Shown piece by piece: positions 3,988 through 37,068 of a stretch of DNA of 37,068 nt; within the stretch, counting starts at the first letter, position 1, and each line of letters begins with the position of its first letter. Source of the DNA: a virus; IMG/VR virus record IMGVR_UViG_3300035670_000079, positions 64,001-101,068 of that record; one strand, written 5' to 3'. The notes under the pieces were generated by a model. The model was not told the origin of the DNA and did no database searches. It saw only the letters and a program-made list of their open reading frames with translations. The translations under genes and the position numbers were made by a program.

Positions 3988-5112
3988 ATGGATGAGAAAG
4001 AATTTTCATGTGAGTGTCCTGTAGCTGGGTATTGTAAAACTTTTCAGCGTCATATGACAGGTAGGGAGTTTGAAGTATGCAGCGGACCACCTACTACTCA
4101 AAAGGCCAGCTTTGTTAAGTTTTGGTTGAAGCAAGCTAAGTTAGATGAAGCCAATACCCCTGAAATTATCCGGGGTATTGGTGATGTTGCCGCTAAGGTT
4201 ATCAAGTCTGTTACTAAGAAAGCCCCATGTGTGCCATGTTTGAAGAGGGCTGCAAGTTTGAACAGGATTGTACCTATTAATTCTTACCCTGAGTTAGACA
4301 CTACTCCAATAAGCTTGGAGACCTCTGTTAGGCACTTGGTATATTTTCTTTTCCCCGTAGCGGGTGATCATGAATGGATTTGGCGAAGACAGTTGGAAAA
4401 ACTTGCAAGTCTTGCAAGCATCTTTAATGGTAGAATTTTTATACGTACCGTGCACGGTCACTTGAAGAATCGCACGCCAACGATTGACCAAGATACCTGT
4501 AGAACGGTGGTGCAATCGTACCTGCCTAACGCTGAGGTTACGAATTACGTAAATGACACCAAGCTTAGGGAGGTCGTAGGATTCGTAGAGACCTTAAATA
4601 CGTTGCAGTCTGTGAATTCTACTGATTTTATTTGCGTAGCTCACGCTAAGGGTCTTCAGTACTCTGACGCAACTAGTGTGGTACATACATGGACAGACAT
4701 TATGTACGAGACAGTCATAGAAGACTGGCAGCGTGCCATATCGTGCTTAGATCGTTATGGCGTTAGCGGTTCATTTAAGCGGTACGGTCAGTTTACTACT
4801 TATAAGAATCATCGTTGGCACTACTCTGGGACATTTTACTGGTTAAGGGCTGCAAGCCTATTTCGTAGAAACTGGGCATACACTGATCAGCGCTTTTGGG
4901 GTATGGAATCTTACCCTGGCTCGCACTTTAGGCCTCGTGAGGGTGCTTGCTTATTTATGGACAATGTTAATGATCTATATAAGAAAGATGAGATGGATAA
5001 AGCTTGCAAGCTCTTGCAAGAGTGGCGTGAGAATAAGCCACTGATACCCGATCCAGTAGAATATGAGGAACAAATGAAAAGCTGGGGAGTCAAACCAATA
5101 TGGTCGAGATGA
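3988..5112 (+). CDS. Glycosyltransferase-like protein with N-terminal Cys-rich module, paralogue A
   Basis: 374 aa, starting directly after the previous stop. The N-terminus has a putative zinc module (C8, C10, C16, C31; CECPVAGYC) and another CxxC at 81-84. The main domain, about 110-340, carries HAKG at 219-222 and HRWHYSGTFYWLR at 275-287. The next gene shares this whole domain at high identity (SVRHL-YF, WRRQLE-L, LREV-GF, GSFKRYG), and the N-terminal half of the gene at 6743 shares it more distantly. An H-x-KG motif followed by an SG-(T/N)-F-(Y/W)-W motif occurs in uncharacterised glycosyltransferase-like proteins. I know no proven activity, so the assignment is tentative. The context suggests modification of a virion component. 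Confidence 0.5.
   Translation: MDEKEFSCECPVAGYCKTFQRHMTGREFEVCSGPPTTQKASFVKFWLKQAKLDEANTPEIIRGIGDVAAKVIKSVTKKAPCVPCLKRAASLNRIVPINSYPELDTTPISLETSVRHLVYFLFPVAGDHEWIWRRQLEKLASLASIFNGRIFIRTVHGHLKNRTPTIDQDTCRTVVQSYLPNAEVTNYVNDTKLREVVGFVETLNTLQSVNSTDFICVAHAKGLQYSDATSVVHTWTDIMYETVIEDWQRAISCLDRYGVSGSFKRYGQFTTYKNHRWHYSGTFYWLRAASLFRRNWAYTDQRFWGMESYPGSHFRPREGACLFMDNVNDLYKKDEMDKACKLLQEWRENKPLIPDPVEYEEQMKSWGVKPIWSR
4403..4417. repeat. Interspersed palindrome, site 3
   Basis: TTGCAAG-T-CTTGCAA, perfect, inside the glycosyltransferase-like gene, where it is read as part of Leu-Ala-Ser-Leu-Ala-Ser. Confidence 0.9.
5004..5019. repeat. Interspersed palindrome, site 4
   Basis: TTGCAAG-CT-CTTGCAA, perfect arms with a 2-nt centre, near the 3' end of the same gene and read as Ala-Cys-Lys-Leu-Leu-Gln. 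Confidence 0.9.
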
Positions 5113-6137
5113 CGCAGGATACATTGGCAGGTGCTGATGAGGTTGACTATACAGTGTGCAGTTGCCCCTTGCAGGGGTATTGTCCTAAGTTTCGTAGGGA
5201 AATGAGTTTTAATGAGTGGAGAAAGTGCAATAGCCCTGGTCCTGCGCGATCGGCTATGCTTCGTAAGTTTTTTAAAGCTGACAGTCTCTCAGTCCGTGCT
5301 TTTGAGGACAGGCATTATCCCCCGCTCTGTACTATGCCTGTAGAGTTCTCCACCAGTGTTCGGCATTTGAATTACTTTATTTACCCGCTTGCTAAGCATT
5401 CTGACAAAGTTTGGCGTAGGCAGCTTGAATTGTTAGGTGAGGGCAAGTCGGCTATCAATGGTAAGTCCATTGTCCGCATAGTTACCGGAGGTGGCTGTAG
5501 TAGTATCAGTGAAGTAACTAAGGCAGTCGTAGACTTGGGTCTACCTAATTTGCAAATAGTCTATATACGCAATAACCGAGACTTACGGGAAGTTAACGGT
5601 TTCATCCCGTCAATAGCGCCGTTGGAAACGCTTAATCCTAATGAGTATATATTCTTTGCTCACGCTAAGGGTGTGACTCACGATGATAAGTCTACGGCGC
5701 ATCGCTGGTCAGAGATAATGTATCAGACGCTGTATTTTAATTGGCCGGCTGTGTTACCTTTCTTGAACACCTACGGATGTCTTGGGTCATTCAAGCGATA
5801 TGGCGAGTTTAATGTCCCTAACTCCCATAGGTGGCACTACTCTGGAACATTCTATTGGGTACGCTCTGCCAGCCTATTTGCAAGAGATTGGCAAATGTGT
5901 TGCCCAACTACTCATGGAACTGAGTCATATTTGGGGATGCACTTTAGGCCTAGCGAGGCTGGCTGTGTATTTATGGACCTATGCGAGAATGTCTATGACA
6001 CTACCTATTTTAGGGATGTCGTAGAGAAGGAATTTGCAGTATGGGCATCCAAATCATTGAAGCTTCCTGCTACTGTGGCTGAGTACGAAAGGTTCTTAGA
6101 GAAGTCCCATAAATTTAACCTGCCAAGAGGGATTTGA
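5100..6137 (+). CDS. Glycosyltransferase-like protein with N-terminal Cys-rich module, paralogue B
   Basis: 345 aa. The ATG at 5100 has a GGGGAG ribosome site about 10 nt upstream and overlaps the previous gene by 13 nt. The ATG at 5109 (ATGA overlap) is the alternative start. It is a tandem duplicate of the preceding gene. The N-terminal module has C20, C22, C28 and C43 (CSCPLQGYC, then a conserved F-x-R-x-M). HAKG is at 188-191, HRWHYSGTFYWVR at 243-255, and a conserved GTESYLGMHFRPSE follows. The Cys-rich N-terminus aligns with that of paralogue A (C-x-CP-x2-GYC), so the module duplicated together with the enzyme domain. The likely role is sugar transfer to a virion or surface target; no activity can be proven from sequence. 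Confidence 0.5.
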   Translation: MVEMTQDTLAGADEVDYTVCSCPLQGYCPKFRREMSFNEWRKCNSPGPARSAMLRKFFKADSLSVRAFEDRHYPPLCTMPVEFSTSVRHLNYFIYPLAKHSDKVWRRQLELLGEGKSAINGKSIVRIVTGGGCSSISEVTKAVVDLGLPNLQIVYIRNNRDLREVNGFIPSIAPLETLNPNEYIFFAHAKGVTHDDKSTAHRWSEIMYQTLYFNWPAVLPFLNTYGCLGSFKRYGEFNVPNSHRWHYSGTFYWVRSASLFARDWQMCCPTTHGTESYLGMHFRPSEAGCVFMDLCENVYDTTYFRDVVEKEFAVWASKSLKLPATVAEYERFLEKSHKFNLPRGI

Positions 6138-6146
6138 CCACTCATT

Positions 6147-6746
6147 ATGTTTTCAGAGAAACCTTTCCGCCACTGGATACTTGATAACTTTATACCGCCC
6201 TCAATGGTTAGTGCCGCCTTGTTGGAGTGGCCTGCCCCAGTTTGGCCCTACTGGCATAGATATAATGACAAGACTTCTAAGAAATATGCGTCGAAGGATA
6301 TACTTAGATTAGGTCCGGCATGCTTGAGTATTTTTAACGATATTTGTAAACTGGATATCTGTAGTTTAACCGGTGATCCTGAAATTTTTCCAGACTTCAG
6401 CGGTTATGGTGCGGGGATGCATTGGATACCCGAAGGTGGTTTTTTAGGCATGCACCTAGACACTGCTAAGCATCCTATCACTGAGTGGCGCAGGGAGTAC
6501 TCAGCATGCCTTTACCTTACTCCGGAAAGCTCCGGAGACTTAGTATTGGCGGATAATCCGGAATTTGCTGACAGTCATAGGGTTAGCCCTAAAGCGGGCA
6601 CATTGGTAGTATTTGAGTGTACCGATTCCTCGTATCACGGTGTTCCGGAGGTGGTAGAATACCCCGGAGGTCGTAAGTCAGTAGCAGCATTCTTCTGGTC
6701 TACTCGTGAAGTTACCGCTACGCGAACAAAGGCTGACTTTAAATGA
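6147..6746 (+). CDS. 2OG-Fe(II) dioxygenase (prolyl 4-hydroxylase-like)
   Basis: 199 aa. The enzyme class uses Fe(II), O2 and 2-oxoglutarate to hydroxylate a substrate. The iron ligands are visible: H103 and D105 in GMHLDTAKHP, and the distal H164 in SSYHGVPEV. R176 in GGRKSVAAFFW would bind 2-oxoglutarate. The strand pattern between them (YSACLYLTPE, GDLVL, GTLVVFE) fits the double-stranded beta-helix core, and the length suits a stand-alone catalytic domain. It lies between glycosyltransferase-like genes and overlaps the next start by 4 nt (ATGA). Hydroxylation before glycosylation of a tail protein is an attractive but unproven pairing. The substrate is unknown. Confidence 0.8.
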   Translation: MFSEKPFRHWILDNFIPPSMVSAALLEWPAPVWPYWHRYNDKTSKKYASKDILRLGPACLSIFNDICKLDICSLTGDPEIFPDFSGYGAGMHWIPEGGFLGMHLDTAKHPITEWRREYSACLYLTPESSGDLVLADNPEFADSHRVSPKAGTLVVFECTDSSYHGVPEVVEYPGGRKSVAAFFWSTREVTATRTKADFK

Positions 6747-7972
6747 AGTATCACTTATTGTACCATTGCTACCCTGAAAATAATTGGATGGACTGCGTTG
6801 AGGATATGTTCAGATTCTTGCGATTGTTTAATGGTCGCAGGGTTGTAACTATTGTAGATTCTGGTGACTGGAATAAAGCTGCCGAGATATTTAGCGTTAA
6901 GGGATTTGAGGTAAAGCTTGTACCAAAATTACCTAGTCAGGAATATAGAGGTTTCGTACTAGGCTTAGATAAACTGCGGTCGGAGGAAGGTTGGATATTT
7001 AGGTCACACACTAAGGGTGTATCTGCTCAAGGTAGACGACCTGCATGGGCGTCTACCCGTTGGCGTAGAACAGCGCTACATCACTGCCTAAGTGAAAGTA
7101 CTGTTGCAAGTCTTGCAACAACCTCAAGCAAGTTTATAGGAACTCACTGGTTACCGGTTAGAATTGCCGGCTCCCCGGACAGACCTTGGAAACACTGGCA
7201 TTTTGCCGGAAGCTCCTACTGGATGCGTCCTCAAGATATCCCAGCAGATATTTGCAGTTATCCTGAAGATTTGTATTTGTGTGAGTACTATCCTGGGATA
7301 GTTTGCGATGCGTCTGAAGTTACTAATTTAGCAATGTCTGAGCCTACTCTGGATACAAATAAGCCGGATACTTTCGGTGAAATAGAATTTTGGACGCCCT
7401 CTGCTAATTACCTTGAACTCCTCGCTAAGAGGTATGGAACAGATAAGGGAAAAGACTTCGATTATTGTCACGGTTATACCGACGTTTATTCGGAGTTATT
7501 TGAGCCTATTCGTGATGATGTGACAGCATTATTGGAGTTTGGCATAGGCCAAGGTGGTAGTATGCTAATGTGGCGTGAGTACTTCTTAAATGCTCATATA
7601 ACTGGAGTTGATTGTGAACGAGACCATAAGATTCCAGAACACTTGAAGAACTATAGTAGGTTACGTATCCTGAATACGGATTATATGCTAGAGGATATCA
7701 AACTCACACATAGGCCGGATATCATCATTGACGATGGTAGCCATTATACAGCGGATCAGCAATACTTGTTTCAAAAATATTGGCAATATGTGAAGTCTGG
7801 CGGGTATTATATCATAGAAGATTTACATGTTAACTACCATCCTATTTTCAATAACTCCTATGAGGCTACTATTGACCTATGCCGTAATTGGGAACGCCGG
7901 CCACCTACTGGTTTTCAGTGGTGCAAGTTGTTTAACGACAAGTTAGCAGTACTCAAGAGGAGGACATTTTAG
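6743..7972 (+). CDS. Fusion of glycosyltransferase-like domain and class I SAM methyltransferase
   Basis: 409 aa with two domains. The N-terminal half, about 1-195, is a shorter relative of the paralogues at 3988 and 5100: HTKG at 89-92, HWHFAGSSYWMR at 151-162. The C-terminal half, about 217-409, resembles sugar O-methyltransferases of the demethylmacrocin (TylE-like) type. It has YGTDKG near 231-236, a glycine-rich SAM loop LEFGIGQGGS at 264-273, the acidic end of strand 2 (GVD, 288-290) and IIIDDGSH at 327-334. One chain that could transfer and methylate a sugar, or act on two substrates, fits the modification cassette. It ends directly before the next ATG. The methyltransferase half is the surer call. 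Confidence 0.7.
   Translation: MKYHLLYHCYPENNWMDCVEDMFRFLRLFNGRRVVTIVDSGDWNKAAEIFSVKGFEVKLVPKLPSQEYRGFVLGLDKLRSEEGWIFRSHTKGVSAQGRRPAWASTRWRRTALHHCLSESTVASLATTSSKFIGTHWLPVRIAGSPDRPWKHWHFAGSSYWMRPQDIPADICSYPEDLYLCEYYPGIVCDASEVTNLAMSEPTLDTNKPDTFGEIEFWTPSANYLELLAKRYGTDKGKDFDYCHGYTDVYSELFEPIRDDVTALLEFGIGQGGSMLMWREYFLNAHITGVDCERDHKIPEHLKNYSRLRILNTDYMLEDIKLTHRPDIIIDDGSHYTADQQYLFQKYWQYVKSGGYYIIEDLHVNYHPIFNNSYEATIDLCRNWERRPPTGFQWCKLFNDKLAVLKRRTF
7104..7118. repeat. Interspersed palindrome, site 5
   Basis: TTGCAAG-T-CTTGCAA, perfect, inside the glycosyltransferase-like half of the fusion gene, read as Val-Ala-Ser-Leu-Ala. Confidence 0.9.
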
Positions 7973-8671
7973 ATGAACTGTGAGCACTGCGGTGCTGATA
8001 TTTCCGGAGGTGACCGGGACGATGTATTTGTAAAGTGCAATATCTGCGATCACTGGACTCCGGATGGTCGTACATTTGAATCCGTAAAATCCCTATATTC
8101 CGGTGAAGACTACGTAATGAATAGTCAGAAGGCTGTAAATGGGTTTGATAAGCTCTGTGAGCAGTGGACTACTAACATAGGGATATTGAAGCAGTTTAGG
8201 GTACGTGGATTAGCGCTGGAGGTTGGTTGTCGGGAAGGTGCCGGAGTAGCGGCACTAACTGCTGCGGGTTACGAGACGTTTGGATTTGACATATCCGAAA
8301 AGTCTAAGGAATGCAGCGTAGCTAACGGCATACCTGCTCATAGGATATTTGTAGCGGATGATTTCTGTGATCTCACGCTGCCCATTAAGTTTGATATCAT
8401 AACTGTTAGAGAGGTTATAGAGCACGTCCCGAATCCTGTGAAGTTTTTGGGAAGTTGCGCATCTAAGTTAGCGGTAAATGGCCTTCTGCAAGTTCAAACT
8501 CCACGTTATGACCGCGTTGAGAGATTTTGGTCTGAGAAAACTCATTTGAGGATATACTCTAAAAAATCTCTTATGGACGATATTAGCGGGATGCCGCCGT
8601 ATAATCTATCACTAGTACATGAATTGTTATGGCAAGGCGGTATGTGTCTGACATTTAAAAAGATCGCTTAA
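7973..8671 (+). CDS. Class I SAM-dependent methyltransferase with N-terminal zinc knuckles
   Basis: 232 aa, starting directly after the previous stop. Residues 3-25 form a zinc-ribbon-like pair (C3-x2-C6, C22-x2-C25). The methyltransferase core follows: motif I LEVGCREGAG at 82-91, GFDIS at 104-108 and motif IV/post-I EVIEHVPNP at 147-155, then a typical SEKTHLRIYS segment. This matches methyltransferases of the type 11/23 group that act on small molecules or sugars, often encoded beside glycosyltransferases. The zinc knuckle may dock it to a target. The substrate is unknown. It belongs to the same tightly spaced operon as the oxygenase and glycosyltransferase-like genes. Confidence 0.8.
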   Translation: MNCEHCGADISGGDRDDVFVKCNICDHWTPDGRTFESVKSLYSGEDYVMNSQKAVNGFDKLCEQWTTNIGILKQFRVRGLALEVGCREGAGVAALTAAGYETFGFDISEKSKECSVANGIPAHRIFVADDFCDLTLPIKFDIITVREVIEHVPNPVKFLGSCASKLAVNGLLQVQTPRYDRVERFWSEKTHLRIYSKKSLMDDISGMPPYNLSLVHELLWQGGMCLTFKKIA

Positions 8672-8673
8672 TC

Positions 8674-9267
8674 ATGTCAACCAATGGCAACTCAGACTCG
8701 ATCCATAGGATAAATGAATCCGTAAGTTGCTTGCGGAGTGACGACACTTTACTTGATTGCTTCGTTTTACATGGCATCTACTCGCCGGAACTTCGGAGTT
8801 ACTTGAGATCCGTTGCATTTGAAAATGCTGTAACAGATCATACATGGCAGCGACTCGGCGATATGCTGGCTCCGGAGGTGATTACAAATAGCTTAAATAA
8901 CTATGACGTAGGAGATAAAGTATTAGGAGCAAGTTGTTACAAATCATTCAACCGATATAGATTAGTCAGGGTAGTTAGGGATTACTCAAAGAGTGTCGAG
9001 GCTCTGGTAACTTTTGGGCATGGTCGAGATCACCACTTAAGTCACGTACTATGGGATCATCCTGCCAGTAATATGCTGCTGGTATTGCCGATATACCAAC
9101 GGTTCCGGTTTAACGTAGTTAGCAGTTCCGTAGTTATTAATGTTGGAGATGGTTTGCTAATCCCAAGTCGATTTCGCAAAGCTGACATAATAGATATAGC
9201 AATAGAGCACAACGGGTTAGCGGGGGCAGCCTACTGTCCCTATGTGTTCGGAGGAAATAATGTCTGA
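8674..9267 (+). CDS. Protein of unknown function in the modification cassette
   Basis: 197 aa; family not recognised. It starts 2 nt after the methyltransferase stop. The C-terminal half is beta-rich, with a histidine-rich segment (GHGRDHHLSHVLWDHP near 114-129) followed by hydrophobic strands and GDGLLIPSRF near 163-172. This is faintly reminiscent of a double-stranded beta-helix (cupin or 2OG-oxygenase) fold, but a complete metal triad is not clear. Its position suggests it works with the neighbouring oxygenase, transferase and methyltransferase genes. It overlaps the next gene by 8 nt. Confidence 0.6.
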   Translation: MSTNGNSDSIHRINESVSCLRSDDTLLDCFVLHGIYSPELRSYLRSVAFENAVTDHTWQRLGDMLAPEVITNSLNNYDVGDKVLGASCYKSFNRYRLVRVVRDYSKSVEALVTFGHGRDHHLSHVLWDHPASNMLLVLPIYQRFRFNVVSSSVVINVGDGLLIPSRFRKADIIDIAIEHNGLAGAAYCPYVFGGNNV

Positions 9268-9571
9268 TATTGTACAAAAGTTATTGAACACTCTCGATCT
9301 ACCTGAGAAAGCTCGAAAAACTGCAAGTCTTGCAAGAGCACTTTTAACAGGCAAGGATGTATCAGTTGGGCGACTTGAGACTAGGCTTAAGATTTGTGCA
9401 AGCTGTCCATACATCTCCAAGCCGGCTGCTAATGGCACGCTTTCTTGCAGCATCTGTGGATGTAAATTAGCTGGCGATAATCGTCTTATAAATCTAGCCA
9501 GATATGAGGAAACTGATAGTTATGGCTGTAAGTATCCCGGTGGGTCTAAGTGGAAGGAGGCTGGAGTATGA
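9260..9571 (+). CDS. Small zinc-ribbon protein
   Basis: 103 aa. I chose the ATG at 9260 because a strong GGAGG (9250-9254) sits 5 nt upstream. An earlier in-frame ATG at 9242 lacks a ribosome site and is buried in the previous gene. The N-terminus is a short helical segment. The C-terminal half has a cysteine array (CASCPY, then CSICGCKLA, then a lone C before KYPGGSKW) typical of the small zinc-ribbon proteins encoded near phage tail genes. No catalytic residues are seen. It probably acts as a structural or adaptor protein. It overlaps the next start (ATGA at 9568). Confidence 0.65.
   Translation: MSDIVQKLLNTLDLPEKARKTASLARALLTGKDVSVGRLETRLKICASCPYISKPAANGTLSCSICGCKLAGDNRLINLARYEETDSYGCKYPGGSKWKEAGV
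9321..9335. repeat. Interspersed palindrome, site 6 (one mismatch)
   Basis: CTGCAAG-T-CTTGCAA: the outer left base is C instead of T. It lies inside the zinc-ribbon gene and is read as Ala-Ser-Leu-Ala. Confidence 0.85.
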
Positions 9572-11433
9572 CTGGTGGAATACCGGTAGACTCACTGAGC
9601 AATAATTTTGCTAACTGGTCTGCGAATTACAGCCTTGAGTCAGGGTTCAGTGCATCAGCTACGCTAACAAATCAGAATAACACCTATTCTCCGGATAATT
9701 TCAGATGGCAGCCGCTGCGCGTGGCTGTAGGTTGTACATCAGCTACAGAGCTAGTAGATGATAGTTTTCTGCAAGGCTCCGTTAACTGGATTAATGGTAT
9801 AGTGACATCAGCTAGTTCGCCTACGGACATTCGTGAGTCTAAGCTTGAGTTGAGTATTGGCAGCTACTTTGGCAGCCTATCTAGTCGGCCTATTAATACT
9901 CATACTTACAACGCACTAGCTCAAGATATCATACTTGACATAGTTACCGTGTATTTCGGAATACCTTTGGGATTACTGGATTTCAGTTCCACTGGGATCT
10001 CTGTTATCAATCTGCCAATATATGGGCAAACTGCGTGGAGTGAGCTTGAGTTGCTTGCCGAAGTTTGCGGTTGCCATTTGTTCGTGCAAGTTGGTGGATT
10101 ACTTACGCTGAGTCCGTGGAAAGATGACAATTCTTCTGTTGACTTAGTGCTGCCACCAGAACTCATTGCGAGTATAGATGTTGTCAGAACCGTGGAGAGG
10201 GGTCCAACACGGTTATTCATAAAGGGTAAATGGACTAGCATGTTTGGTTGTGGTCCCGCCTTGCTTACCAATAGCGAGGGAGATGAGCCACAGTTTGAAA
10301 CACCTAAATGTTATATTACCGGGGTTAAGGAAGCTACATCACAGCTACACATGAAAAATATTGCTGCAAGCAAGACTGACCTCATTAATGCAGCCTATCT
10401 GACAGACGGGGACTTGTTTCAATTTATTCGACCAGCAACTCAAAATTCCAATGGCTCTGTTAGCTTCTCTGTGAATAATGGTGTAGATTCTACACCTGCG
10501 GGAGTAGTGCAGCGGACTCATGTTAAGATACTTGCCAGACGGCAAGATGGAGATAAGGGAGAGAAAACATCTCACAAAGGTAAAACAACTAAAGCGGTTA
10601 TCTCCAGACAGGACAGGGTATTCTCAAAGTTAATGGGACTACCTCCGGGATCAGCATTTCCGCCGGAGGCTGACGCAGATAGAACATCAGATTCAGGAGA
10701 CGAGAATAGACAGCTAGTGGCAATAATTGATACTGATCTTGAATCTGAGTTCGGAGTAATACCTGAAACAATAGATAACCAGTACGTCAATAACAGTTTG
10801 GCGGCTATAGCCATTGCCATACGCAAGTTCCAAGAATTTAAGATGAGACGTAAGCGATATAAGGTAACGTCTGCATATATTGCCGGATTACGTTTGAATC
10901 AAGTTGTCACGTTTCCTACTATTCAAGACCCTGATGTTACTATTACTGGGAGAGTTGCCTCGATAAATGTCAGCTATTCACCAGCATCGTCTGGATTTGG
11001 TATGACTATGACATTTGAGGTAGACTCATTTGAGGATATTGGTAATACGATTTACACTGCCGGCAACCTGTTTGTGTATCCGGAATGCTGCGGCATTAAC
11101 GGAGTTGACTGGTTTAAGGATGGTGAGGTCTATGCCGTAGCGGGACACTTCGCCATTAAAGCAGGGTCTGCTATTGGGCAGAGACTTTACACTATTCCCG
11201 GCGCTGACTACAGTATAACTGTTGAAGCTAAGCTACTGTCAGACGTTGGTACGTTCAGAATAGACTACTACAATAATGGAACATTCATAGGCTCTAGTGC
11301 TAGTATCTCGTCTAATCAGTCATTGAACTTATCATTCGTAGCTCCCGGTAGCGTTACGGAGATTTACTTTGTGGCGGTTGCAGGTGACTGGGCTGTAACT
11401 AATCCGCTGGCAACAATACTTATCACAGCATGA
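9568..11433 (+). CDS. Probable baseplate-hub or tail-associated protein
   Basis: 621 aa from the ATG at 9568, which has AAGGAGG 7 nt upstream and an ATGA overlap with the previous gene. A GTG at 9550 is a weaker alternative. The first 200 residues are beta-rich; WSELELLAEVCGCHLFVQVGGLLTLSPWK, near 165-193, resembles the pattern in gp27/gpD-like hub proteins, where a shortened tail frame assesses a local domain. Middle strands and a region near 420-470 (KYKVTSAYIAGLRLNQVVTF) fit hub-type repeats. The last 100 residues look like a carbohydrate-binding jelly-roll (YSITVEAKLLSDVGTFRIDYYNNG). I infer a structural virion protein, possibly with a receptor-binding tail. The hub assignment is moderate. 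Confidence 0.5.
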   Translation: MTGGIPVDSLSNNFANWSANYSLESGFSASATLTNQNNTYSPDNFRWQPLRVAVGCTSATELVDDSFLQGSVNWINGIVTSASSPTDIRESKLELSIGSYFGSLSSRPINTHTYNALAQDIILDIVTVYFGIPLGLLDFSSTGISVINLPIYGQTAWSELELLAEVCGCHLFVQVGGLLTLSPWKDDNSSVDLVLPPELIASIDVVRTVERGPTRLFIKGKWTSMFGCGPALLTNSEGDEPQFETPKCYITGVKEATSQLHMKNIAASKTDLINAAYLTDGDLFQFIRPATQNSNGSVSFSVNNGVDSTPAGVVQRTHVKILARRQDGDKGEKTSHKGKTTKAVISRQDRVFSKLMGLPPGSAFPPEADADRTSDSGDENRQLVAIIDTDLESEFGVIPETIDNQYVNNSLAAIAIAIRKFQEFKMRRKRYKVTSAYIAGLRLNQVVTFPTIQDPDVTITGRVASINVSYSPASSGFGMTMTFEVDSFEDIGNTIYTAGNLFVYPECCGINGVDWFKDGEVYAVAGHFAIKAGSAIGQRLYTIPGADYSITVEAKLLSDVGTFRIDYYNNGTFIGSSASISSNQSLNLSFVAPGSVTEIYFVAVAGDWAVTNPLATILITA

Positions 11434-11445
11434 AAGTGGATTGAG

Positions 11446-12873
11446 ATGAAACCTGAGATTGAATTTGATGCTACTGAAGTCTTCTCGCACATCTTCGTTA
11501 GTACCACATGGTCAACTAGCTTAGGGCATGGGAAGGCTACGGTTAACTTTACAAACTCCGGCACCGTTACAATTAGCGGTGAGGAGTTTACTTATGATTT
11601 CGTACATCAACCTACGCCGGCTATTCTCATACATAAGGGAGAGACTCTTATGTTTAAGTTTGAGTGGTTCGATGATGTTAAGTATTTCAAATCCAAGAGT
11701 CCGTACAATGCTGGATTTGAGTTACTCAAGCCTATGTCAAATATGCTTGAATGGAATAAGTTGTGTGATTCACGCACACTGAAGCGGAAAGAGCGGTTGG
11801 CTAGGGCTACGGCTGCCAAGAAGGGTATAGTCAAGCGGCAAACTACGGATACCCGTGGTTACTTTATCCCTGATTATATGATACTCAAGGAGTTTCCGGA
11901 CCATAAGACTAAGCATAAGCTGGCAATAGGGTTAATTGCTGCCGACCGCCCGCATTATTTTAAGAGAGTTTTTCCCGCTATTGTGCAATCTGTTGCACTA
12001 GCTGAGATTGAAGTTGATTGGTACCTGTTTGTCGATAGAGTTAAGCCGGATGCGCGGGATGAGCTTGCGCAGATTGAATTATTTAACAATATGGTAAAGG
12101 GTGGTACAGTTATTCGCCGTGACGTTAATTTTGGCTGTGGTGGGAATATCATAAATGCTAGGGCTATCCTGCTGGATCAGTTAGATTATGAAGCTGCTTA
12201 TATTTTTGAAGATGATATGGTTCCGCATCCATCCTATGTTAGTGTTTGTGAAAGCTTGGCTAAATACGCGGAGCGTGTGTCTACGCCTGAAATTAACTAC
12301 GGAATAGTACAAGGGTGGAATTGGTTTACACTTAGTAGCGGTGCGGCTCAGAGGTATGCATCCTACGTTACACCTACATGTAGTAATTTGTGGGGATATA
12401 GGATTACTCGTAAATGTTGGTCAGATATTTCTGAGTTTATGTATTTCTACTTGAATACTTTTCTGAAAAATTGTAGATACGCTGATAGGGACCATCGCTC
12501 GATAGCTACATGGTTGCGTAATCAGACTAGGAATTATGTTGTTCCCGATCTTCCGGTATTCGGTAATAAGTGTCCGGCATTTTCTGAAAAGATTGTAAGA
12601 TACTTAGCTGGTCCACCTACGGGTCAGGATGCCGCTACTGTAGTAGCCTGTTTGTTGGCTAATCAGTATAGACTTGCTCCTGTGGTTGCTAGAGGTGACT
12701 ACATAGGAAAGATGGGGATACACATGAATCCTCGTCAATGGGCAGCAGACGGTTATGATGCTCTTAAGTCTGTGGATATCGGTTATGATCATGATCAGTG
12801 GGATGAACTTGTTGGTCATGTCACTGATGACTTCAAACAAGTAAACTCTGTGGAAGGGCTGGTGTCAGCGTAA
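11446..12873 (+). CDS. GT-A glycosyltransferase with beta-rich N-terminal domain
   Basis: 475 aa. Residues 1-100 are beta-rich and contain a small Ig/CBM-like pattern (KATVNFTNSGTVTISGEEFTYDF). Residues of about 155-300 carry the glycosyltransferase domain: KLAIGLIAADRPHYFKRVFPAIVQS opens it, FVDRVKPDARDE gives a second strand, and YIFEDDMVPHPSY at 253-264 holds the E-D-D (DxD-type, 255-257) metal and nucleotide-sugar site. The pattern is close to that of GNT-I-like enzymes. The rest includes NLWGYRITRKCW, typical of acceptor-side segments. It lies between a hub-like tail gene and the Acb2-like gene. A transferase fused to a virion-like domain is unusual, and it may modify or ride on the tail. 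Confidence 0.7.
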   Translation: MKPEIEFDATEVFSHIFVSTTWSTSLGHGKATVNFTNSGTVTISGEEFTYDFVHQPTPAILIHKGETLMFKFEWFDDVKYFKSKSPYNAGFELLKPMSNMLEWNKLCDSRTLKRKERLARATAAKKGIVKRQTTDTRGYFIPDYMILKEFPDHKTKHKLAIGLIAADRPHYFKRVFPAIVQSVALAEIEVDWYLFVDRVKPDARDELAQIELFNNMVKGGTVIRRDVNFGCGGNIINARAILLDQLDYEAAYIFEDDMVPHPSYVSVCESLAKYAERVSTPEINYGIVQGWNWFTLSSGAAQRYASYVTPTCSNLWGYRITRKCWSDISEFMYFYLNTFLKNCRYADRDHRSIATWLRNQTRNYVVPDLPVFGNKCPAFSEKIVRYLAGPPTGQDAATVVACLLANQYRLAPVVARGDYIGKMGIHMNPRQWAADGYDALKSVDIGYDHDQWDELVGHVTDDFKQVNSVEGLVSA

Positions 12874-28553: not shown

Positions 28554-28888
28554 AACTCAACGGAACCTCTGAAAATTTTGAAGCTTCTGTTACAATGTCT
28601 GCTAACGGTGTCGAGTTGCAAGCCTTGCAATTGCGACCGAAAATTTCAGTAGACGGCCCTACTGACGGCACCCTTGTACGCATGAGTGTGGGAGAGACTA
28701 TAAATTTGGGTAACTATCAATCTTTGCGGCTTGATGTTTCTGTGCAGCTACCTACGAATCTTGCCAGCCTCGATAGTACTGTTACGCAGTGCGCTGATTA
28801 TGTTGATATGATTTTGAAGGAGCGCAAGGATCAATTTGCGGAGAAGGCTAACGCCGTCAAAAGTGACCTCGACAAGGTGTTTGGTTAA
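28544..28888 (+). CDS. Small protein of unknown function between ligase and recombinase
   Basis: 114 aa from the ATG at 28544, inside the ligase end; a GTG at 28535 is a less likely start. The first 70 residues are beta-rich (VELNGTSENFEASVTMSANGVEL; LVRMSVGETINLGNYQSLRLDVSVQLPTNLASLDS), and the last 35 form a helix (DMILKERKDQFAEKANAVKSDLDKVFG). Small proteins with the NYQSLRLDVSVQLP-type strand occur near phage recombinases, but I know no function. It ends on the first base of the recombinase ATG. Confidence 0.6.
   Translation: MSVELNGTSENFEASVTMSANGVELQALQLRPKISVDGPTDGTLVRMSVGETINLGNYQSLRLDVSVQLPTNLASLDSTVTQCADYVDMILKERKDQFAEKANAVKSDLDKVFG
28616..28630. repeat. Interspersed palindrome, site 17
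   Basis: TTGCAAG-C-CTTGCAA, perfect, inside the small gene before the recombinase, read as Leu-Gln-Ala-Leu-Gln, the same peptide as at site 1. Confidence 0.9.
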
Positions 28889-29979
28889 TGGCAGAGAAGG
28901 TATCTAAGCCACTTACATTAGAAGAATTCAATAAAGAGGTTATGGCTAAATATGGGAAGAACGTAATTAGTAACTCTAAGGGGGAGTTTGCTAACTCAAC
29001 TGCTAGTAGATTTTCTAGTGGTATTTATTCACTGGATGTTGCTTTGGGTGGCGGGTGGCCTATAGGTAAGATCGGCCTAATTGCTGGACAATTTTCCGAA
29101 GGTAAGACTGAGATATGCTTACAGGCAATAGGGTCTATGGCGAATTATGATAAGAGGACGAAGCTGCATAAGCTAGTTATGCCACAAGGTACCCCATTTG
29201 AACCGTGCCGTTCAGTTTATATTGACTTAGAGTACACATTTGATACGCCGTGGGCAATCAGTAAAGGGTTTAACCCTGCTAAAGACTCCATCATTAGACC
29301 CTCATCTGGCGAAAGTACCGTAGACATTGTTAGTGAGATTATAGGTAATAATCTTTACGATTTAGTTGTAGTAGACAGTCTCGCTGCCGCGACTCCCACT
29401 AAGGAAGTTGAATCCTCGGCTGAAGATGTTCTAGTCGGTAATCATGCTCGCCTGTTGAATAGGGCATTCCGTATGTGGACTAATCAGGCTGTTCGGGTAT
29501 CTAGTCGTGGTCAAGTTCCCCCAACAGTGTTGTGTATAAATCAGATACGGTATAATATTGGAGTGATGTTCGGTGATCCTCGTACAATGCCCGGCGGGCA
29601 AATGCAGAGATTTGCGGCATCCGTGATACTTTATACAAAGTCGGCGAAGTATGGGGAAAAGGGTGGAGAGTCCCAAGTAGAATTATCTGGAGTAATCTTT
29701 AAGAACAAGACTTATAGGCCTAAAGAGTTGTTCTCATATAAGCTTGCCGTAGGTGACGTTAGTCCAGAACTACCTAAAGGTACTATAGATAACATATCAG
29801 ATATAGTGAAGGATGCCAGTGACTCAAAGTTCATAATCAGAAAAGGCTCAAATTACGAACTATTTGGGGTCAGCTATCCATCAGTTGCTGCGATACGAGA
29901 CGCTATTCACGCTAATGAGGTGCTAAAGGTTAAACTTTGGCGTAGTTTGATCAAGCATAGAACCGGGAACTTAATATAA
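28888..29979 (+). CDS. RecA/UvsX-like strand-exchange recombinase
   Basis: 363 aa, ATG sharing one base with the previous stop. The core matches RecA-family ATPases: SRFSSGIYSLDVALGGGWPIGKIGLIAG leads to Walker A GQFSEGKT (67-74), YIDLEYTF follows (E115 being the expected catalytic glutamate), Walker B VVVDS is at 160-164, and NQIRYNIGVMFGDPRTMPGGQMQRFAAS, near 212-240, matches the L2-side region. It would load on the SSB-covered strand and pair homologous DNA. The resolvase, nuclease and second resolvase genes that follow complete a recombination module. Confidence 0.88.
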   Translation: MAEKVSKPLTLEEFNKEVMAKYGKNVISNSKGEFANSTASRFSSGIYSLDVALGGGWPIGKIGLIAGQFSEGKTEICLQAIGSMANYDKRTKLHKLVMPQGTPFEPCRSVYIDLEYTFDTPWAISKGFNPAKDSIIRPSSGESTVDIVSEIIGNNLYDLVVVDSLAAATPTKEVESSAEDVLVGNHARLLNRAFRMWTNQAVRVSSRGQVPPTVLCINQIRYNIGVMFGDPRTMPGGQMQRFAASVILYTKSAKYGEKGGESQVELSGVIFKNKTYRPKELFSYKLAVGDVSPELPKGTIDNISDIVKDASDSKFIIRKGSNYELFGVSYPSVAAIRDAIHANEVLKVKLWRSLIKHRTGNLI

Positions 29980-30488
29980 TGCCGCTAGGCTCTACCAAGC
30001 GAAAAACTGATCCTAAGAGTGCTGCAATGCGGTTAGAGGCAGATTTAGCCTCCCGTGCAGGTGGTTATGCTCAGCCGGGATCAGGTGCTGGTTTAAGGCA
30101 TAAAGGTGATGTTATAACTGACTATTTATTATTCGATAGTAAGCATACCTCTACAAATTCAATTACAGTTACTGCCGATATGCTGTCAAAGATAACTAAG
30201 CAGGCTAGTCAACACGGTAGGTATCCGGGATTAATCTTAACAATACCTAGTACCGTCAATGCCGCCCATGATTGGGCGGTCATACCTTTTGACTTTCTTT
30301 GCGATTTGCTTATTCTTACGAAAGGACGCTTAGATGAACTTAGAGGAGCAGGTAGCCCTAGCGATGGGCCTACTGAAAGCGGTGCCGAATCACTCGAAAA
30401 CGTCGAATCCCTCGAAAACGTCGAGCTATCAAAATCTACCGCTATCGGCAACGAAAGCTGCAATATTGAATTTCCTGAGGACGCCTAG
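29979..30488 (+). CDS. Hjc-like Holliday junction resolvase (PD-(D/E)xK fold)
   Basis: 169 aa, ATG sharing one base with the previous stop. The fold signature is E20, then GSGAGLRHKGDV (34-45) with D44, and D53-S-K55 in LFDSKHTST, i.e. the E...GD...DxK catalytic set of the archaeal-Hjc-type family. MLSKITKQASQHGRYPGLILTI (about 68-89) matches the C-terminal helix and strand of that family. After about residue 115 the sequence becomes Gly/Ser/Glu-rich with a repeated ESLENV. Those residues are encoded in a region that also codes for the start of the next gene in another frame (see that gene). It would cut branched DNA made by the recombinase. Confidence 0.72.
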   Translation: MPLGSTKRKTDPKSAAMRLEADLASRAGGYAQPGSGAGLRHKGDVITDYLLFDSKHTSTNSITVTADMLSKITKQASQHGRYPGLILTIPSTVNAAHDWAVIPFDFLCDLLILTKGRLDELRGAGSPSDGPTESGAESLENVESLENVELSKSTAIGNESCNIEFPEDA

Positions 30489-30689: not shown

Positions 30690-30704
30690 TTGCAAGTCTT
30701 GCAA
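30690..30704. repeat. Interspersed palindrome, site 18 (intergenic)
   Basis: TTGCAAG-T-CTTGCAA, perfect. It lies in the 35-bp gap before the nuclease gene, ending two bases before its ribosome site CGGAG. Confidence 0.9.
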
Positions 30705-30719
30705 CCGGAGTGCTCTGGC

Positions 30720-31769
30720 ATGGCGACATTGGGGGAAATCATCGCGAAGGCTCAAGTAGCATCGGCAAGTTCGCCAGTTACGACGTTGCCTCCGGATGTT
30801 ACGGCTATTAATAATTTTTCTCTATCTGTTGTTAATTTTGTCGATAAGTGGGCTGGTAGGTCTGGTCAGGTTGATATTCTTAGGTGCTCTGGTTTGCATT
30901 ATGTTTGTCCTCGTGCGTTTGTTATTAACTACTGGAGACCTGCTGCGCCAGTTGCCACTTTTGATGCTGTCGGCTACTTGCGTATGAATTGTGGCACAAG
31001 TATTCATAAATTTATGCAGGATGTTGTCTTAGGGCCGGGTCTTATTTTGAAGGGGTCTTGGCATAATACTTCTGATGGTAGCATTGTTGGGGGTTACCAT
31101 CCTGATCCTGAGAGGGCTATATTTGAGTGGGAGCACTCAAATATGACTACTTGGGAGTATATAGAGCCGGAATACTTTGATCCGCATTATCGTATTTCCG
31201 GCCATAGTGATGGAGTTGTCTCAATTGAGCGCCTAAAAGTTTTTAATACTCTGTGTAAAAATAAGACTGTAGGCTTAAAAGCTATGCTTAAGGAACTTGA
31301 GAAGATTTCCGGAGGTGAGGATGCTCTATTAGAAATGAAGAGTACCTCAGCAGGAGGCTTTACTCAAGTAAATGGGCCTACTAGACTGCCGGGAGTTTAC
31401 ACATTGCAGGCAGCCATGTATCAGCACATGTCAGGATTATCTAGTACGGTGTTTCTGTATATTTCGCGGGATAATTGCGCTATGAACTCTTTTAAGTTTG
31501 TAGCCACCCCTTCGATGGTTACCTATGGGCTTGATAAGGCTGCCGTGATTTGGGAGTCCATTAGAGACCGCACGCTACCGGTAGAGTATATGCCGTGCAT
31601 GTCACTATCAGATACTGCTGCCAAGAGTTGTAATGTAAGCGAGGCTTGTTTCGCGCATTTCAGGTCTGGTAGTAACTATGGTGATTTCCATCAGTTTATA
31701 GAAGAATCTAAGTTAGCTCAACCTGATCGCAAGTGGCTGGATTTAAGCGGATGGACCCGTTCTCACTAG
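30720..31769 (+). CDS. RecB/Cas4-like PD-(D/E)xK nuclease
   Basis: 349 aa from the ATG at 30720; an in-frame start at 30690 lies in the palindrome. An N-terminal Cys pair (RCSGLHYVCPRAF, C56 and C63) and a conserved helix (GTSIHKFMQDVV, H95) precede the core. The core is ISGHSDGVV (D164) and LLEMKSTS with E205 and K207 (ExK), followed by YTLQAAMYQHMSGL with Q230, matching the RecB-family motif QxxxY/H. A C-terminal Cys pair (AKSCNVSEACF) could complete an Fe-S-like or zinc site, as in Cas4/AddB. It would resect DNA ends for recombination. Confidence 0.75.
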   Translation: MATLGEIIAKAQVASASSPVTTLPPDVTAINNFSLSVVNFVDKWAGRSGQVDILRCSGLHYVCPRAFVINYWRPAAPVATFDAVGYLRMNCGTSIHKFMQDVVLGPGLILKGSWHNTSDGSIVGGYHPDPERAIFEWEHSNMTTWEYIEPEYFDPHYRISGHSDGVVSIERLKVFNTLCKNKTVGLKAMLKELEKISGGEDALLEMKSTSAGGFTQVNGPTRLPGVYTLQAAMYQHMSGLSSTVFLYISRDNCAMNSFKFVATPSMVTYGLDKAAVIWESIRDRTLPVEYMPCMSLSDTAAKSCNVSEACFAHFRSGSNYGDFHQFIEESKLAQPDRKWLDLSGWTRSH

Positions 31770-32212
31770 TGGGGCTTCATCCTATTTGTCAACTGGTTCT
31801 GGATATTGAACCCTTTGCTTCGCAGTCTGTTAGGGTTACGAAGTCTGGAAGATGTTATCCAGATTCCGCTAAGATGGCATTTATGGCAGAGGTTGCTAGG
31901 CAAGTGTCTGAGCAGTGGCAAGCGCCTCCATTAGATATTCCCATTTTTCTGGTATTAGCGTGGGCTTTCGGAGCTAAGCGTACCGCTCTTAGGGACACGG
32001 CTCCTGATGTGGATAATCTACACAAACCACTACTTGACGGAATGGCTAAGATACTGTATACTGTAGACAGTCGCATAGTCGGGACGTGTAGCTTAAAGAT
32101 GAACGTAAAAGGAATTTCAAAAATTCTGGTTACCCCTTGCGTGGTACGCCCGCATATACAAGAAATCGAAAAATGGTTTCAAGATGCAAAACCTAGGAAA
32201 AGCTTAAAATGA
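31751..32212 (+). CDS. RusA-like Holliday junction resolvase
   Basis: 153 aa from the ATG at 31751, overlapping the nuclease end by 19 nt. The family signature is APDVDNLHKPLLDGM at 84-98 (acidic residues D86, D88 and D96, plus K92), followed by VDSRIV (105-110), matching RusA-type endonucleases that cut four-way junctions. Length fits the family (about 120-150). The first 30 residues (QLVLDIEPFASQSVRVT) supply the strand-1 pattern. Two different resolvase families within about 2 kb is unusual. It shares an ATGA overlap with the next gene. Confidence 0.82.
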   Translation: MDPFSLVGLHPICQLVLDIEPFASQSVRVTKSGRCYPDSAKMAFMAEVARQVSEQWQAPPLDIPIFLVLAWAFGAKRTALRDTAPDVDNLHKPLLDGMAKILYTVDSRIVGTCSLKMNVKGISKILVTPCVVRPHIQEIEKWFQDAKPRKSLK

Positions 32213-33641: not shown

Positions 33642-34649
33642 ATGAGTAATGACGTTGCGGTTGCTGCGGTTGCTGCGGCTGGTGAAGTTGCTGGTGCGGC
33701 GGATGTTGGTGTTGTGGCTGCGGCACCTCCGGCACCGGTTTTTGTTGATGCCGAGTTTATTAATGGTGTTCAGCCGAGTATGGCTATTGCCGCTACTTCT
33801 CCGGAAGATCGTGCTGCTACGATTCGGGAATACGTTAAGACTATTTCTAAGACTGAAGCCACGTCCCGCCTCGTTGTCGGCGGTTTGCTGTATGAAGCAC
33901 AGAAAGGCGAGTACCATAAGAAGTACACGTTTACGGATAGTGCCGGTCACATCAATCACTACGCTGATTTTAAGCACTGGGTGATGGAAGAAACCGGTAT
34001 GCCTTACCGTACTGCGTTTAATCGTATTAAGCTGTACGAGTTGCTCGTCGTTACTCTTAAGTTGCCGGCTGAGCAGATTAAGGGGCTGAAGCTCGGTAAT
34101 GTTGAGCAACTCTACAGCAGCATTACTGTCGATAATGCTCCGGATATGCTGGCTATCTGCAATAACAGCACGTTCTCCGAAGTTTGCGAAGTCCGTGCGA
34201 TGCTTAGTGCAGACAGTACGCTGACTCCTGATACTATTAAGGCCAAGCTGGATGCGGCCCGTGCTGCTAAGTTGGCCGGTCCTGCTAATGCTGATGCTGC
34301 GGCACCGGCTACTGAAGGTACTGCTGGTACCGGCGGAATCTCTGGTAGTGGTGAGCAGGCCAAGTCAATTAAGTTTACTGGCACTGTTGCCCAAATTGAG
34401 GCAATTAAGAGTGCCATCACTACTGCTAAGCAGGTTGCTCATACTGATTCGGATATTGCCGCGATTGAGCTGATTTGTGCCGAGTTTCAGGCGTCTAATT
34501 GCAGTTCTTCGGGTACGCCTGAAGAGAAGATGGCTGCGGTTATGCGGATTCTGCGTAATGTTGAAGTTACCTATGGAATCCGCGTGCAAGTGCTGGCTGA
34601 AGATGGTGTTGATGCCGCAGTTGCCGATGCCGGTGGTTTCGGCGAGTAG
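33642..34649 (+). CDS. Highly expressed regulatory or DNA-organising protein of unknown family
   Basis: 335 aa, ribosome site AGAGGAAC. The first 35 residues are Ala/Val/Gly-rich and probably disordered. Residues 45-180 form a helical region: TIREYVKTISKTEATSRLVVGGLLYEAQKGEYHKKY, then HYADFKHWVMEETGMPYRTAFNRIKLYELLV (a probable helix-turn-helix-like segment) and LKLGNVEQLYSS. It faintly resembles DUF3102/ParB-like accessory DNA-binding proteins. A second Ala-rich linker precedes a C-terminal helical domain (AEFQASNCSSSGTPEEKMAAVMRILRNVEVTYGIRVQVLAEDG). It has its own promoter, operator-like repeats and terminator, suggesting high and separately controlled expression. No named family is certain. 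Confidence 0.55.
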   Translation: MSNDVAVAAVAAAGEVAGAADVGVVAAAPPAPVFVDAEFINGVQPSMAIAATSPEDRAATIREYVKTISKTEATSRLVVGGLLYEAQKGEYHKKYTFTDSAGHINHYADFKHWVMEETGMPYRTAFNRIKLYELLVVTLKLPAEQIKGLKLGNVEQLYSSITVDNAPDMLAICNNSTFSEVCEVRAMLSADSTLTPDTIKAKLDAARAAKLAGPANADAAAPATEGTAGTGGISGSGEQAKSIKFTGTVAQIEAIKSAITTAKQVAHTDSDIAAIELICAEFQASNCSSSGTPEEKMAAVMRILRNVEVTYGIRVQVLAEDGVDAAVADAGGFGE

Positions 34650-34739: not shown

Positions 34740-36167
34740 ATGTCGTCGCCAGTTTTTCTCACTCATATAGTTGTGCCGAGTGAGTACGGTGCGCCCTCTT
34801 CTACAACTCCAACTGTGTTGTTGGTAAAATTAATTAATGCCGCAGGTGGCGGTAGTTCTGAATTATTTGCAAATAGTTCATGCTCCTGCCAGACATTTAC
34901 GAAACTTCGCACTTGTGACCATATTAGTTTGGTTACGCAAGCTGCCTCGGCTTACGCTAGTGCTAAGATTGTTACCGCTGTGTGGGTTAAATCAACTGGT
35001 ACCTCTTATGATATGGTGCCGATTAGAGAATATATTAAGGAAATTTCACCAGATGACTTGTCTAAGCTGTTGCGAGCAGTTTCAATAAACTCAGATACTT
35101 CTACAGGTCTTTCGGCGGAACTTGGCCGTATTCTTGGTACCGTAGGTGATGCTGAAAAGGATGATGGTAAATCTCTTATAGATAGGATTCTAAAGCATCA
35201 AGCTACGTTGTCACCCGAACCCAAGGCTAACAGTATTCAGGGATATGTTATTAAGAAATTCCCTGAAGCCGCCATGTCAGCGGCATCTGCTGCTACTAGT
35301 ACTGGCAATACGTTTAAGTCGCTGATAAGTAAGCCTAGACCCACTGAGTTTAAAGTCACGGCTGGTACGTGGCAATCTGTGCTGTTTAATTTGTGCTATC
35401 CCGGCAATCACGTTATGTTGTGTGGTCCGTCTGGTTCAGGTAAGACAGAGTTAGTGGAGTATGCCACTAAGTTTGCTGGCAGAACCCTGTTTAAAGTTAA
35501 TTGCGGTGCTATGACAGATGCACGGCTGACTCTTATCGGGAATACTGTGTTCGAGGCCGGTAAGGGTACTAGATTCATTGAATCTGGCTTTGCTGCCGCT
35601 ATTCAGCGGGCAGGCACTGTAATCCTGCTGGATGAGATTAGTCGTGCAGGTGCCGATGCATTTAATATCCTGCTACCGCTGTTGGATGGTCAGAGATACT
35701 TGTCTCTCGATGAAGACCCTAACGGCAAGCGTATTACGTTGGCAGATGATGTTAGCATTTTTGCCACTGCCAACATTGGTACTGAGTATACCGGTACCTT
35801 TACGCTTGATAGGGCTTTGTCGAATCGCTTTACTATGGTGCATGTGGACTTCCCCCAGCTTGATGATGAAATTAAGCTTTGTGTGGAGCGTACTAAAGTC
35901 CCGGAGAGTGTTGCTAAGCAGCAATGTAAGTTTGCTCATGAGCAGCGACAAGCTGCCCGAAAGGGTAGTTTCTCCACTGAAATTTCTACTAGAGTGCTCC
36001 TTAAAGCGTGCTCGCAAGTAATGGCCGGTATGGCTATTGACCCTATTATTGATTTTACGCTGCTTGGTGATTTTTCGCGTGAGGGTGGCGATCAGTCCGA
36101 CTACGCTAAAGCGGTAGTCTTGGCTAAAGCCCATTTCTTTAATTATGGTAAAGGCGGAGCGAGGTAA
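34740..36167 (+). CDS. SWIM zinc-finger/MoxR-type AAA+ ATPase
   Basis: 475 aa, GAAAGG upstream. The N-terminus has CSC-x8-C-x-H (C48, C50, C59, H61), the SWIM zinc-finger pattern, a DNA/protein-binding module. A linker of about 130 residues leads to a MoxR/dynein-related AAA+ core: Walker A GPSGSGKT at 229-236, Walker B ILLDEI at 295-300, sensor 1 ATAN at 342-345, and LDRALSNRF (arginine-finger region, about 356-364). Such ATPases act as chaperones or remodellers with a VWA-type partner encoded next to them; the next gene fits that role. It is probably a remodeller of a phage or host complex. Confidence 0.82.
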   Translation: MSSPVFLTHIVVPSEYGAPSSTTPTVLLVKLINAAGGGSSELFANSSCSCQTFTKLRTCDHISLVTQAASAYASAKIVTAVWVKSTGTSYDMVPIREYIKEISPDDLSKLLRAVSINSDTSTGLSAELGRILGTVGDAEKDDGKSLIDRILKHQATLSPEPKANSIQGYVIKKFPEAAMSAASAATSTGNTFKSLISKPRPTEFKVTAGTWQSVLFNLCYPGNHVMLCGPSGSGKTELVEYATKFAGRTLFKVNCGAMTDARLTLIGNTVFEAGKGTRFIESGFAAAIQRAGTVILLDEISRAGADAFNILLPLLDGQRYLSLDEDPNGKRITLADDVSIFATANIGTEYTGTFTLDRALSNRFTMVHVDFPQLDDEIKLCVERTKVPESVAKQQCKFAHEQRQAARKGSFSTEISTRVLLKACSQVMAGMAIDPIIDFTLLGDFSREGGDQSDYAKAVVLAKAHFFNYGKGGAR

Positions 36168-36172
36168 TACAA

Positions 36173-37068
36173 GTGTTATTACGAGAGCGGCTCTTGGCGG
36201 AATCTAAAATAGTTAGGGATGATCCATCCTTGCATTTTAAGTTACCGGAGGTGCCTAAGGGCAGATTAGAGGGTGAAAACTTAGCTATTTATATGGCTAA
36301 TTGCGTAGCAGCCTCGAATTCAATTCTTCAGATACTTGCACCTGAGGATGTTAGGATTACGTGGAGCAGTAATGTAGGCTTAGCTGCGATGGGTGCCGCC
36401 GGTGCGTATGATGGTGAGGCCCACGAGGTTATTATCGACCTAGATGCTTTTAAGGATGTAAACAGGCATGACATGGTTAACACTATGATAGGTGTTGGCC
36501 TGCATGAGTTAGCTCATAGGTTGTACACTCCGCAAGTGCTGTTTGATGACTTGCAGAAAGTCAATAAGGTTGTATCGGCTATAATGCAGTTGCTGGAGGA
36601 TATTCGCATAGAGACCCGTATGGGTACTTCGCGAGAAGTTAATATCTTCGGATTCTACTTTAATATCTTGCATAATCAGTTCATAAGTATCGAGCATCCT
36701 AGTACTTGTGCGGGGAAACCCGCAATTGTGAAGATAAACTTGCTCATGGCTTACTTACGAAAGCCTGCAAGTCTTGCAATGTTCCGATCAAATGAGCATC
36801 TAGCAGATATAGCTACGTTGGATAAGATACTAGGTGACGGTGCTAAGATTTTGTCGGACGATGCTCGTATATCCGAAGTAGCTACTGAGATATACGAGGC
36901 ATTGTTTAAGGCTGGAGATGATGAGGAGTCAGATGAATCCGGCGAATCTAGTGAATCCGGCGAGTCTAGTGAATCCGGCGAGTCTAGTGAATCCGGCGAG
37001 TCTAGTGAATCCGGCGAGTCTAGTGAATCCGGCGAGTCTAGTGAATCCGGCGAGTCTAGTGAATCCGG
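36173..37068 (+). CDS. HExxH protein with acidic repeat, probable MoxR partner (3' partial)
   Basis: GTG start with GAGGT 7 nt upstream, 5 nt after the ATPase stop; the frame runs off the right edge. Residues 111-115 are HELAH, an HExxH zinc-metallopeptidase-like motif in GVGLHELAHRLYTP. LEDIRIE at 141-147 could supply the third metal ligand. This arrangement recalls the N-terminal part of CobT-like VWA proteins paired with MoxR ATPases, where an acidic linker connects to a VWA domain. Here the chain continues into repeated ESGESS (from about residue 255). A VWA domain, if present, is beyond the window. Confidence 0.6.
   Translation, partial: MLLRERLLAESKIVRDDPSLHFKLPEVPKGRLEGENLAIYMANCVAASNSILQILAPEDVRITWSSNVGLAAMGAAGAYDGEAHEVIIDLDAFKDVNRHDMVNTMIGVGLHELAHRLYTPQVLFDDLQKVNKVVSAIMQLLEDIRIETRMGTSREVNIFGFYFNILHNQFISIEHPSTCAGKPAIVKINLLMAYLRKPASLAMFRSNEHLADIATLDKILGDGAKILSDDARISEVATEIYEALFKAGDDEESDESGESSESGESSESGESSESGESSESGESSESGESSESGESSES
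36765..36779. repeat. Interspersed palindrome, site 21 (one mismatch)
   Basis: CTGCAAG-T-CTTGCAA: the outer left base is C. It lies inside the HExxH gene, read as Ala-Ser-Leu-Ala, again the same peptide as at sites 3, 5, 6 and 13. Confidence 0.85.
36935..37068 (+). repeat. 18-bp tandem repeat encoding ESGESS
   Basis: About 7.4 copies of GAATCCGGCGAGTCTAGT; the first copy has one base difference (GAA for GAG). It gives a Ser/Glu-rich acidic linker in the HExxH protein and continues past the window edge. Near-identity of copies suggests recent expansion or strong homogenisation. Confidence 0.95.

Follow-up and report, generated by a model that had tools for sequence, protein, structure and literature searches.

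The stretch of DNA analysed here (the window; 37,068 nucleotides) comprises bases 64001–101068 of the 101,068-base virus record IMGVR_UViG_3300035670_000079 and ends where the record ends. Its last two genes, both on the plus strand, encode a AAA+ ATPase with an N-terminal zinc motif and the beginning of a zincin-like partner. The ATPase (475 aa; 34740–36167) matches Pfam AAA_5 (64.1 bits, E 1.8e-17, above cut-off), CbbQ_C (21.1 bits against a cut-off of 20.6) and the PHROG family phrog_249 (E 9.7e-32). Its Walker A motif, GPSGSGKT (residues 229–236; 35424–35447), occupies invariant columns in an alignment of relatives, and its Walker B motif, LLDE (residues 296–299; 35625–35636), is found in the same alignment. 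In an AF2 model, NorQ and CbbQ were the nearest fold matches to the AAA part; the N-terminal domain had a pLDDT under 50 and was unusable, so the fold claim is limited to the AAA part. As the first-pass annotation had proposed, the protein is a MoxR ATPase, and it belongs to the CbbQ/NorQ branch with a CbbQ_C-type lid.

The N terminus of this ATPase carries a SWIM-like zinc motif at 34881–34922 with the pattern CxC-x8-CxH, whose ligands are C48, C50, C59 and H61 (CSCQTFTKLRTCDH). We aligned six SWIM-MoxR proteins, including that of the window, to which the others are 30–33% identical; the four zinc ligands and Met1 are the only invariant residues in the first ~195 positions. When the N-terminal 195 aa were shuffled, CxC-x(4–25)-CxH arose at a frequency of ~4.5e-5, and the exact x8 spacing appeared in 0 of 200,000 shuffles. 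A chance origin of the motif is ruled out by these shuffles and by the invariance of the ligands. The Pfam SWIM model PF04434 does not match the window ATPase even at E 10, and the assignment is one of motif plus conservation, for a type of domain that binds proteins as well. The SWIM finger noted in the first pass over the sequence thus holds as a SWIM-like motif kept under selection across diverged proteins.

The partner ORF (36173–37068) begins 5 bases past the ATPase stop and is still open at the end of the window. It contains an HExxH zinc site, HELAH (residues 111–115; 36503–36517), followed by EDIRIE (residues 142–147; 36596–36613), part of LEDIRIE at residues 141–147, in which a Glu is the likely third zinc ligand. 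In an alignment of 14 zincin proteins, with the start Met left out of the numbering, G106, H110, E111, H114, E141 and D142 are invariant, the last two being the E and D of EDIRIE. Both the intact site and the likely third ligand, which had been pointed out from the letters alone, are therefore conserved. An AF2 model of this half (pLDDT 74.3, pTM 0.76) resembles zinc peptidases: the ten best VIA rows hold only Ste24p, selecase, 6mdw, abylysin and BlaR1, with Z from 5.0 to 6.6 (Ste24p 6.6, selecase 6.5, 6mdw 6.3, abylysin 6.1), all below 8, a range in which the tool warns of a common arrangement, and all Foldseek E values are above 0.05. The highest Foldseek probability among the matches listed (0.89) belongs to 6mdw, a DNA–protein crosslink repair entry that we take to be SPRTN; the SprT Pfam family has no match among the window proteins.

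At its C-terminal end as read in the window, the partner runs into an acidic GESSES repeat with an 18-bp unit (36930–37068), inside which the record breaks. The first 120 bases of the record are identical to its last 120 and lie within the same repeat, which continues in frame at the record start into an ORF that stops at base 1402 (locus L002). This second half carries a VWA domain (29.0 bits against a cut-off of 23.8) with the MIDAS sequence DESGS, and it also matches CobT_C, the CobT-type VWA family (PF11775; 26.2 bits against a cut-off of 21). The two halves match separate parts of one 729-position family, phrog_1576 (positions 35–110 for the HExxH half and 619–707 for the VWA half), and in relatives a single ORF carries both domains, which supports the join across the record ends. 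Given the in-frame repeat and the 120-base overlap, the ATPase is followed by one protein with the order zincin, acidic linker, VWA, split where the record was cut. The VWA domain that the first-pass annotation suggested looking for beyond the acidic repeat is therefore present, and the check that it had set as refuting turned out in support of it. The record is classed as linear, yet its termini share 120 identical bases, and the genome may accordingly be circular or circularly permuted.

To place the pair among its relatives, we searched IMG/VR with an AAA alignment (80 of 481 relatives were kept) and with a SWIM-MoxR alignment (80 of 81 kept, some loci being common to both), giving a survey set of 157 loci including the window; two of these, L012 and L094, are one contig, and L097 and L098 look alike. 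The alignment searches found relatives where single-sequence scans of viral contigs with the window proteins had found none, and tblastn with the zincin half against phages likewise gave no match. A partner ORF matching a zincin HMM is present at 131 of the 157 loci, and its HExxH site is intact in 130 of them (76 of 77 once the set was thinned at 70% identity; the sole exception is L154), although the HMM, whose seeds were all HExxH proteins, leans towards intact sites. The HMM detects no partner at the remaining 26 loci, 11 of which end <700 bases from the ATPase; at the other 15, which have more room, the partner was not found. Outside the survey set, the site is lost in phage nickie (SEISK) and in an Acinetobacter plasmid homologue (QEVAK) and retained in the homologue on an Escherichia coli phage-plasmid-like plasmid (HEVAH). 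The losses in L154, nickie and the Acinetobacter plasmid suggest that in some lineages the job needs no cutting. In phage-plasmid-like plasmids of Enterobacteria and Acinetobacter, the pair occurs in reversed order (L183:4666–8105, L184:4119–7430), and the C-terminal region of the nickie CobT is matched by 959 plasmid records at E 1e-3.

The SWIM motif is confined to 8 of the 157 ATPase ORFs, representing seven contigs (the window, L011, L012/L094, L095, L096, L097 and L098), and occurs in none of the ATPases at the 12 loci of a genome_contigs search. In a 27-row tree the SWIM ATPases form one side of a branch with an SH-aLRT of 92, and the trait requires a single change, where shuffling gives a mean of 5.6; on these alignments, the SWIM version appears as a single clade with one origin. 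Six of the seven SWIM contigs encode, directly upstream of the ATPase, a small separate ORF that abuts or slightly overlaps the ATPase ORF and carries another SWIM motif (CxC...CxH); in these relatives this small SWIM gene is a third member of the cassette. PF04434 scores 19.3 bits on the small ORF of L094, just under the cut-off of 19.6. The small ORF was not found in the window's record, where one minus-strand 97-codon frame is a loose match. Among other homologues, phage-plasmid-like and nickie ATPases have ROS/MUCR-like N-terminal fingers below the Pfam cut-off of 25.4 bits (16.4 for L091:8877–10103 and 22.3 for L184:6186–7430), and a finger therefore seems to have been added to this ATPase on more than one occasion.

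Upstream of the pair, the window encodes on the same strand a UvsX-like recombinase (28888–29979; phrog_97, E 3.3e-49), a Holliday junction resolvase of family phrog_2002 (29979–30488; E 4.5e-21), a Cas4/exonuclease-like protein (30690–31769; phrog_2506, E 1.4e-11), a RusA-like resolvase (31733–32212; phrog_140, E 3.1e-12) and a phrog_17202 protein (33642–34649), followed by SWIM-MoxR and zincin-VWA. These are conserved neighbours, and phrog_17202 keeps its place in SWIM-clade relatives. Neighbours were scanned in four contigs (L011, L094, L095 and L096), for a subset of these genes in some of them, and recur as follows: resolvase, exonuclease, RusA and phrog_17202 in L011; recombinase, resolvase, exonuclease and RusA in L094; exonuclease, RusA and phrog_17202 in L096; and phrog_17202 in L095. 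This conserved gene order supports the earlier idea of a replisome remodeller as far as a link to the replication or recombination module goes. Homologous pairs also lie near replication or nucleotide genes in DLP6, Cantare, nickie, Sf-CH8 and the E. coli phage-plasmid-like plasmid; the BS162P1 pair has one DNA polymerase nearby, that of Mae-Yong1326-1 adjoins a RecA-family ATPase, and the annotation of Mel-JY01 and Perlina is uninformative. At 13 non-SWIM loci, with 63 neighbouring proteins, the commonest named family is ribonucleotide reductase, and none of the 25 commonest families is a head or tail family. The genes for both the large and the small subunit of ribonucleotide reductase beside the non-SWIM pair hint at a link to nucleotide metabolism or at a cofactor role.

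We propose that the products of the two genes would act together as a single ATP-driven machine for protein remodelling and proteolysis, which probably pulls at or cleaves proteins located on DNA. By analogy with NorQ and CbbQ, the MoxR ATPase would form a hexameric ring on which the partner docks through its C-terminal VWA domain. The MIDAS of that domain may grip an acidic residue of the target while the ring transmits force, by analogy with known MoxR–VWA systems (PMC7159879), and the acidic linker would tether the N-terminal zincin so that it is able to cut the gripped target. The SWIM finger, accompanied in most of the relatives by the small SWIM protein, would bring the machine to DNA itself or to a recombination complex bound there, and the machine would then remove or process proteins on phage DNA. 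SWIM proteins of the eukaryotic Shu complex are described as binding RAD51 paralogues (PMC6316741), an analogy that would fit the UvsX-like neighbour. The parts of this proposal differ in strength: a MoxR/VWA machine whose zinc site is functional is likely, real proteolysis by the zincin is somewhat favoured, and activity directed at DNA-bound proteins of replication or recombination is a tentative suggestion. Taken overall, a DNA-recruited AAA+ metalloprotease or remodeller with a presumed DNA-bound target is the best reading, to which we give a probability of roughly 45%. A likely targeting module comes with the SWIM subgroup, and the neighbourhood names candidate targets (recombinase, resolvases and exonuclease), which together make the function of the cassette testable.

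Proteins of this architecture have been read in other ways. Iyer et al. (2021) describe a phage MoxR ATPase adjoining a vWA protein that bears a metallopeptidase at its N terminus and, in jumbo phages, propose it as a virion-assembly chaperone with a processing protease (PMC7824862). The window pair has the same architecture, and the same source has an archaeal virus MoxR–vWA pair serving tail assembly; the passages describing the phage pair mention no SWIM finger, and relative to that pair the window cassette differs by its SWIM domain, the small SWIM gene of its relatives and its recombination neighbourhood. Gene place is indirect evidence, but the SWIM clade, the annotated phages and, among their 25 commonest neighbour families, the 13 non-SWIM loci have recombination or nucleotide neighbours and no virion genes, and we regard a role in virion assembly as unlikely for this pair. 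The host defence complex that the first-pass annotation also named as a target gained no support. A machine for host takeover or counter-defence, taking apart a DNA-bound complex of the host, would agree with the MoxR–vWA–peptidase sets that accounts of bacterial conflict systems include (PMC7159879, PMC12839542); the vWA–MoxR–VMAP ternary systems share the MoxR and vWA core and sometimes have peptidase effectors, but we recognised no VMAP or third component alongside the window pair, which lies in a phage recombination neighbourhood. We found no hint of a host target, and the place among recombination genes is kept over deep divergence, which makes this reading rather improbable.

The nearest solved AAA+ proteins to the window ATPase come from NorQ–NorD and CbbQ–CbbO, in which the ATPases are partners of VWA cochaperones and which act on cellular metalloenzymes or Rubisco. 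A NorQD-like metal-cofactor maturase, possibly for class I ribonucleotide reductase, would accord with this likeness and with the commonest named neighbour family at non-SWIM loci, but it would leave the zincin and SWIM unexplained, the matched regions of NorQ–NorD and CbbQ–CbbO show no zincin or SWIM, and the ribonucleotide reductase large subunit is found in 0 of 7 SWIM-clade records, some of which may be fragments; we consider this function very unlikely. The same absence weighs against a role in cobalamin supply. Liu et al. (2021) take the viral pair as CobS and CobT, cobaltochelatase subunits that borrow the host CobN and raise cobalamin supply, and they consider the peptidase label an error (PMC8651126); the description of Mae-Yong1326-1 repeats this reading (PMC9503304). 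Homology is real, as the CobT_C match and the PHROG names of both proteins attest, and the window pair shares with CobS/CobT (solved CobT 9uka_G) a MoxR ATPase, an acidic linker, a C-terminal VWA domain and an alignable N-terminal domain. Yet neither window protein matches the equivalog models TIGR01650 and TIGR01651, PF06213 reaches 10.6 bits against a cut-off of 26.1, and CobN is present in 0 of 43 viral records, some of which may be fragments. In a profile built from phage, plasmid and Caballeronia sequences, to which the N-terminal region of 9uka_G can be aligned (domain i-E 0.00017), the zinc site conserved in phages falls on GLGDSMAL, without HExxH, and the ligand helix reads AVEQARVEA; since the fold matches listed for the zincin model do not include 9uka, this comparison rests on one profile alignment. 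Taken together, we find a cobaltochelatase here highly improbable. Genes like CobS/CobT in viruses are frequently classed as auxiliary genes for vitamin B12, and the conserved zinc site, the degenerate CobT site and the absent CobN make a simple sequence test that points away from a B12 role.

Returning to the preferred DNA-recruited protease or remodeller, SPRTN-type proteases offer a functional parallel, a DNA-recruited zinc protease with a AAA+ motor, which for SPRTN is p97. Unlike the window pair they have no VWA or MoxR, and the zincin fold is linked to them by a weak structural likeness alone (6mdw). A stronger form of the proposal, which we hold to be doubtful, would have the phage machine clear covalently or tightly DNA-bound proteins during recombination-dependent replication as a working prokaryotic analogue of SPRTN/Wss1–p97, with CobT a catalytically dead member of a large family of active proteases; many viral "CobST" vitamin B12 genes would then be misnamed. 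The window pair falls within a larger phage family that has been published in part, and the ATPase/protease-VWA pair itself is widespread in phages. The SWIM version of the pair appears to be new: among titles and abstracts of the open-licence PMC literature, a body from which subscription papers are mostly absent, none was recognisable as describing a SWIM-MoxR phage protein.

Elsewhere in the record, a second and unrelated metalloprotease-like ORF (L002:8267–9127) carries HEIGHAIGLDH and a later ALMQP and is, by eye, a metzincin. Also by eye, the window region 3988–12873 holds a run of ORFs resembling glycosyltransferases, methyltransferases and a 2OG-Fe(II) oxygenase, flanked by genes that look structural.
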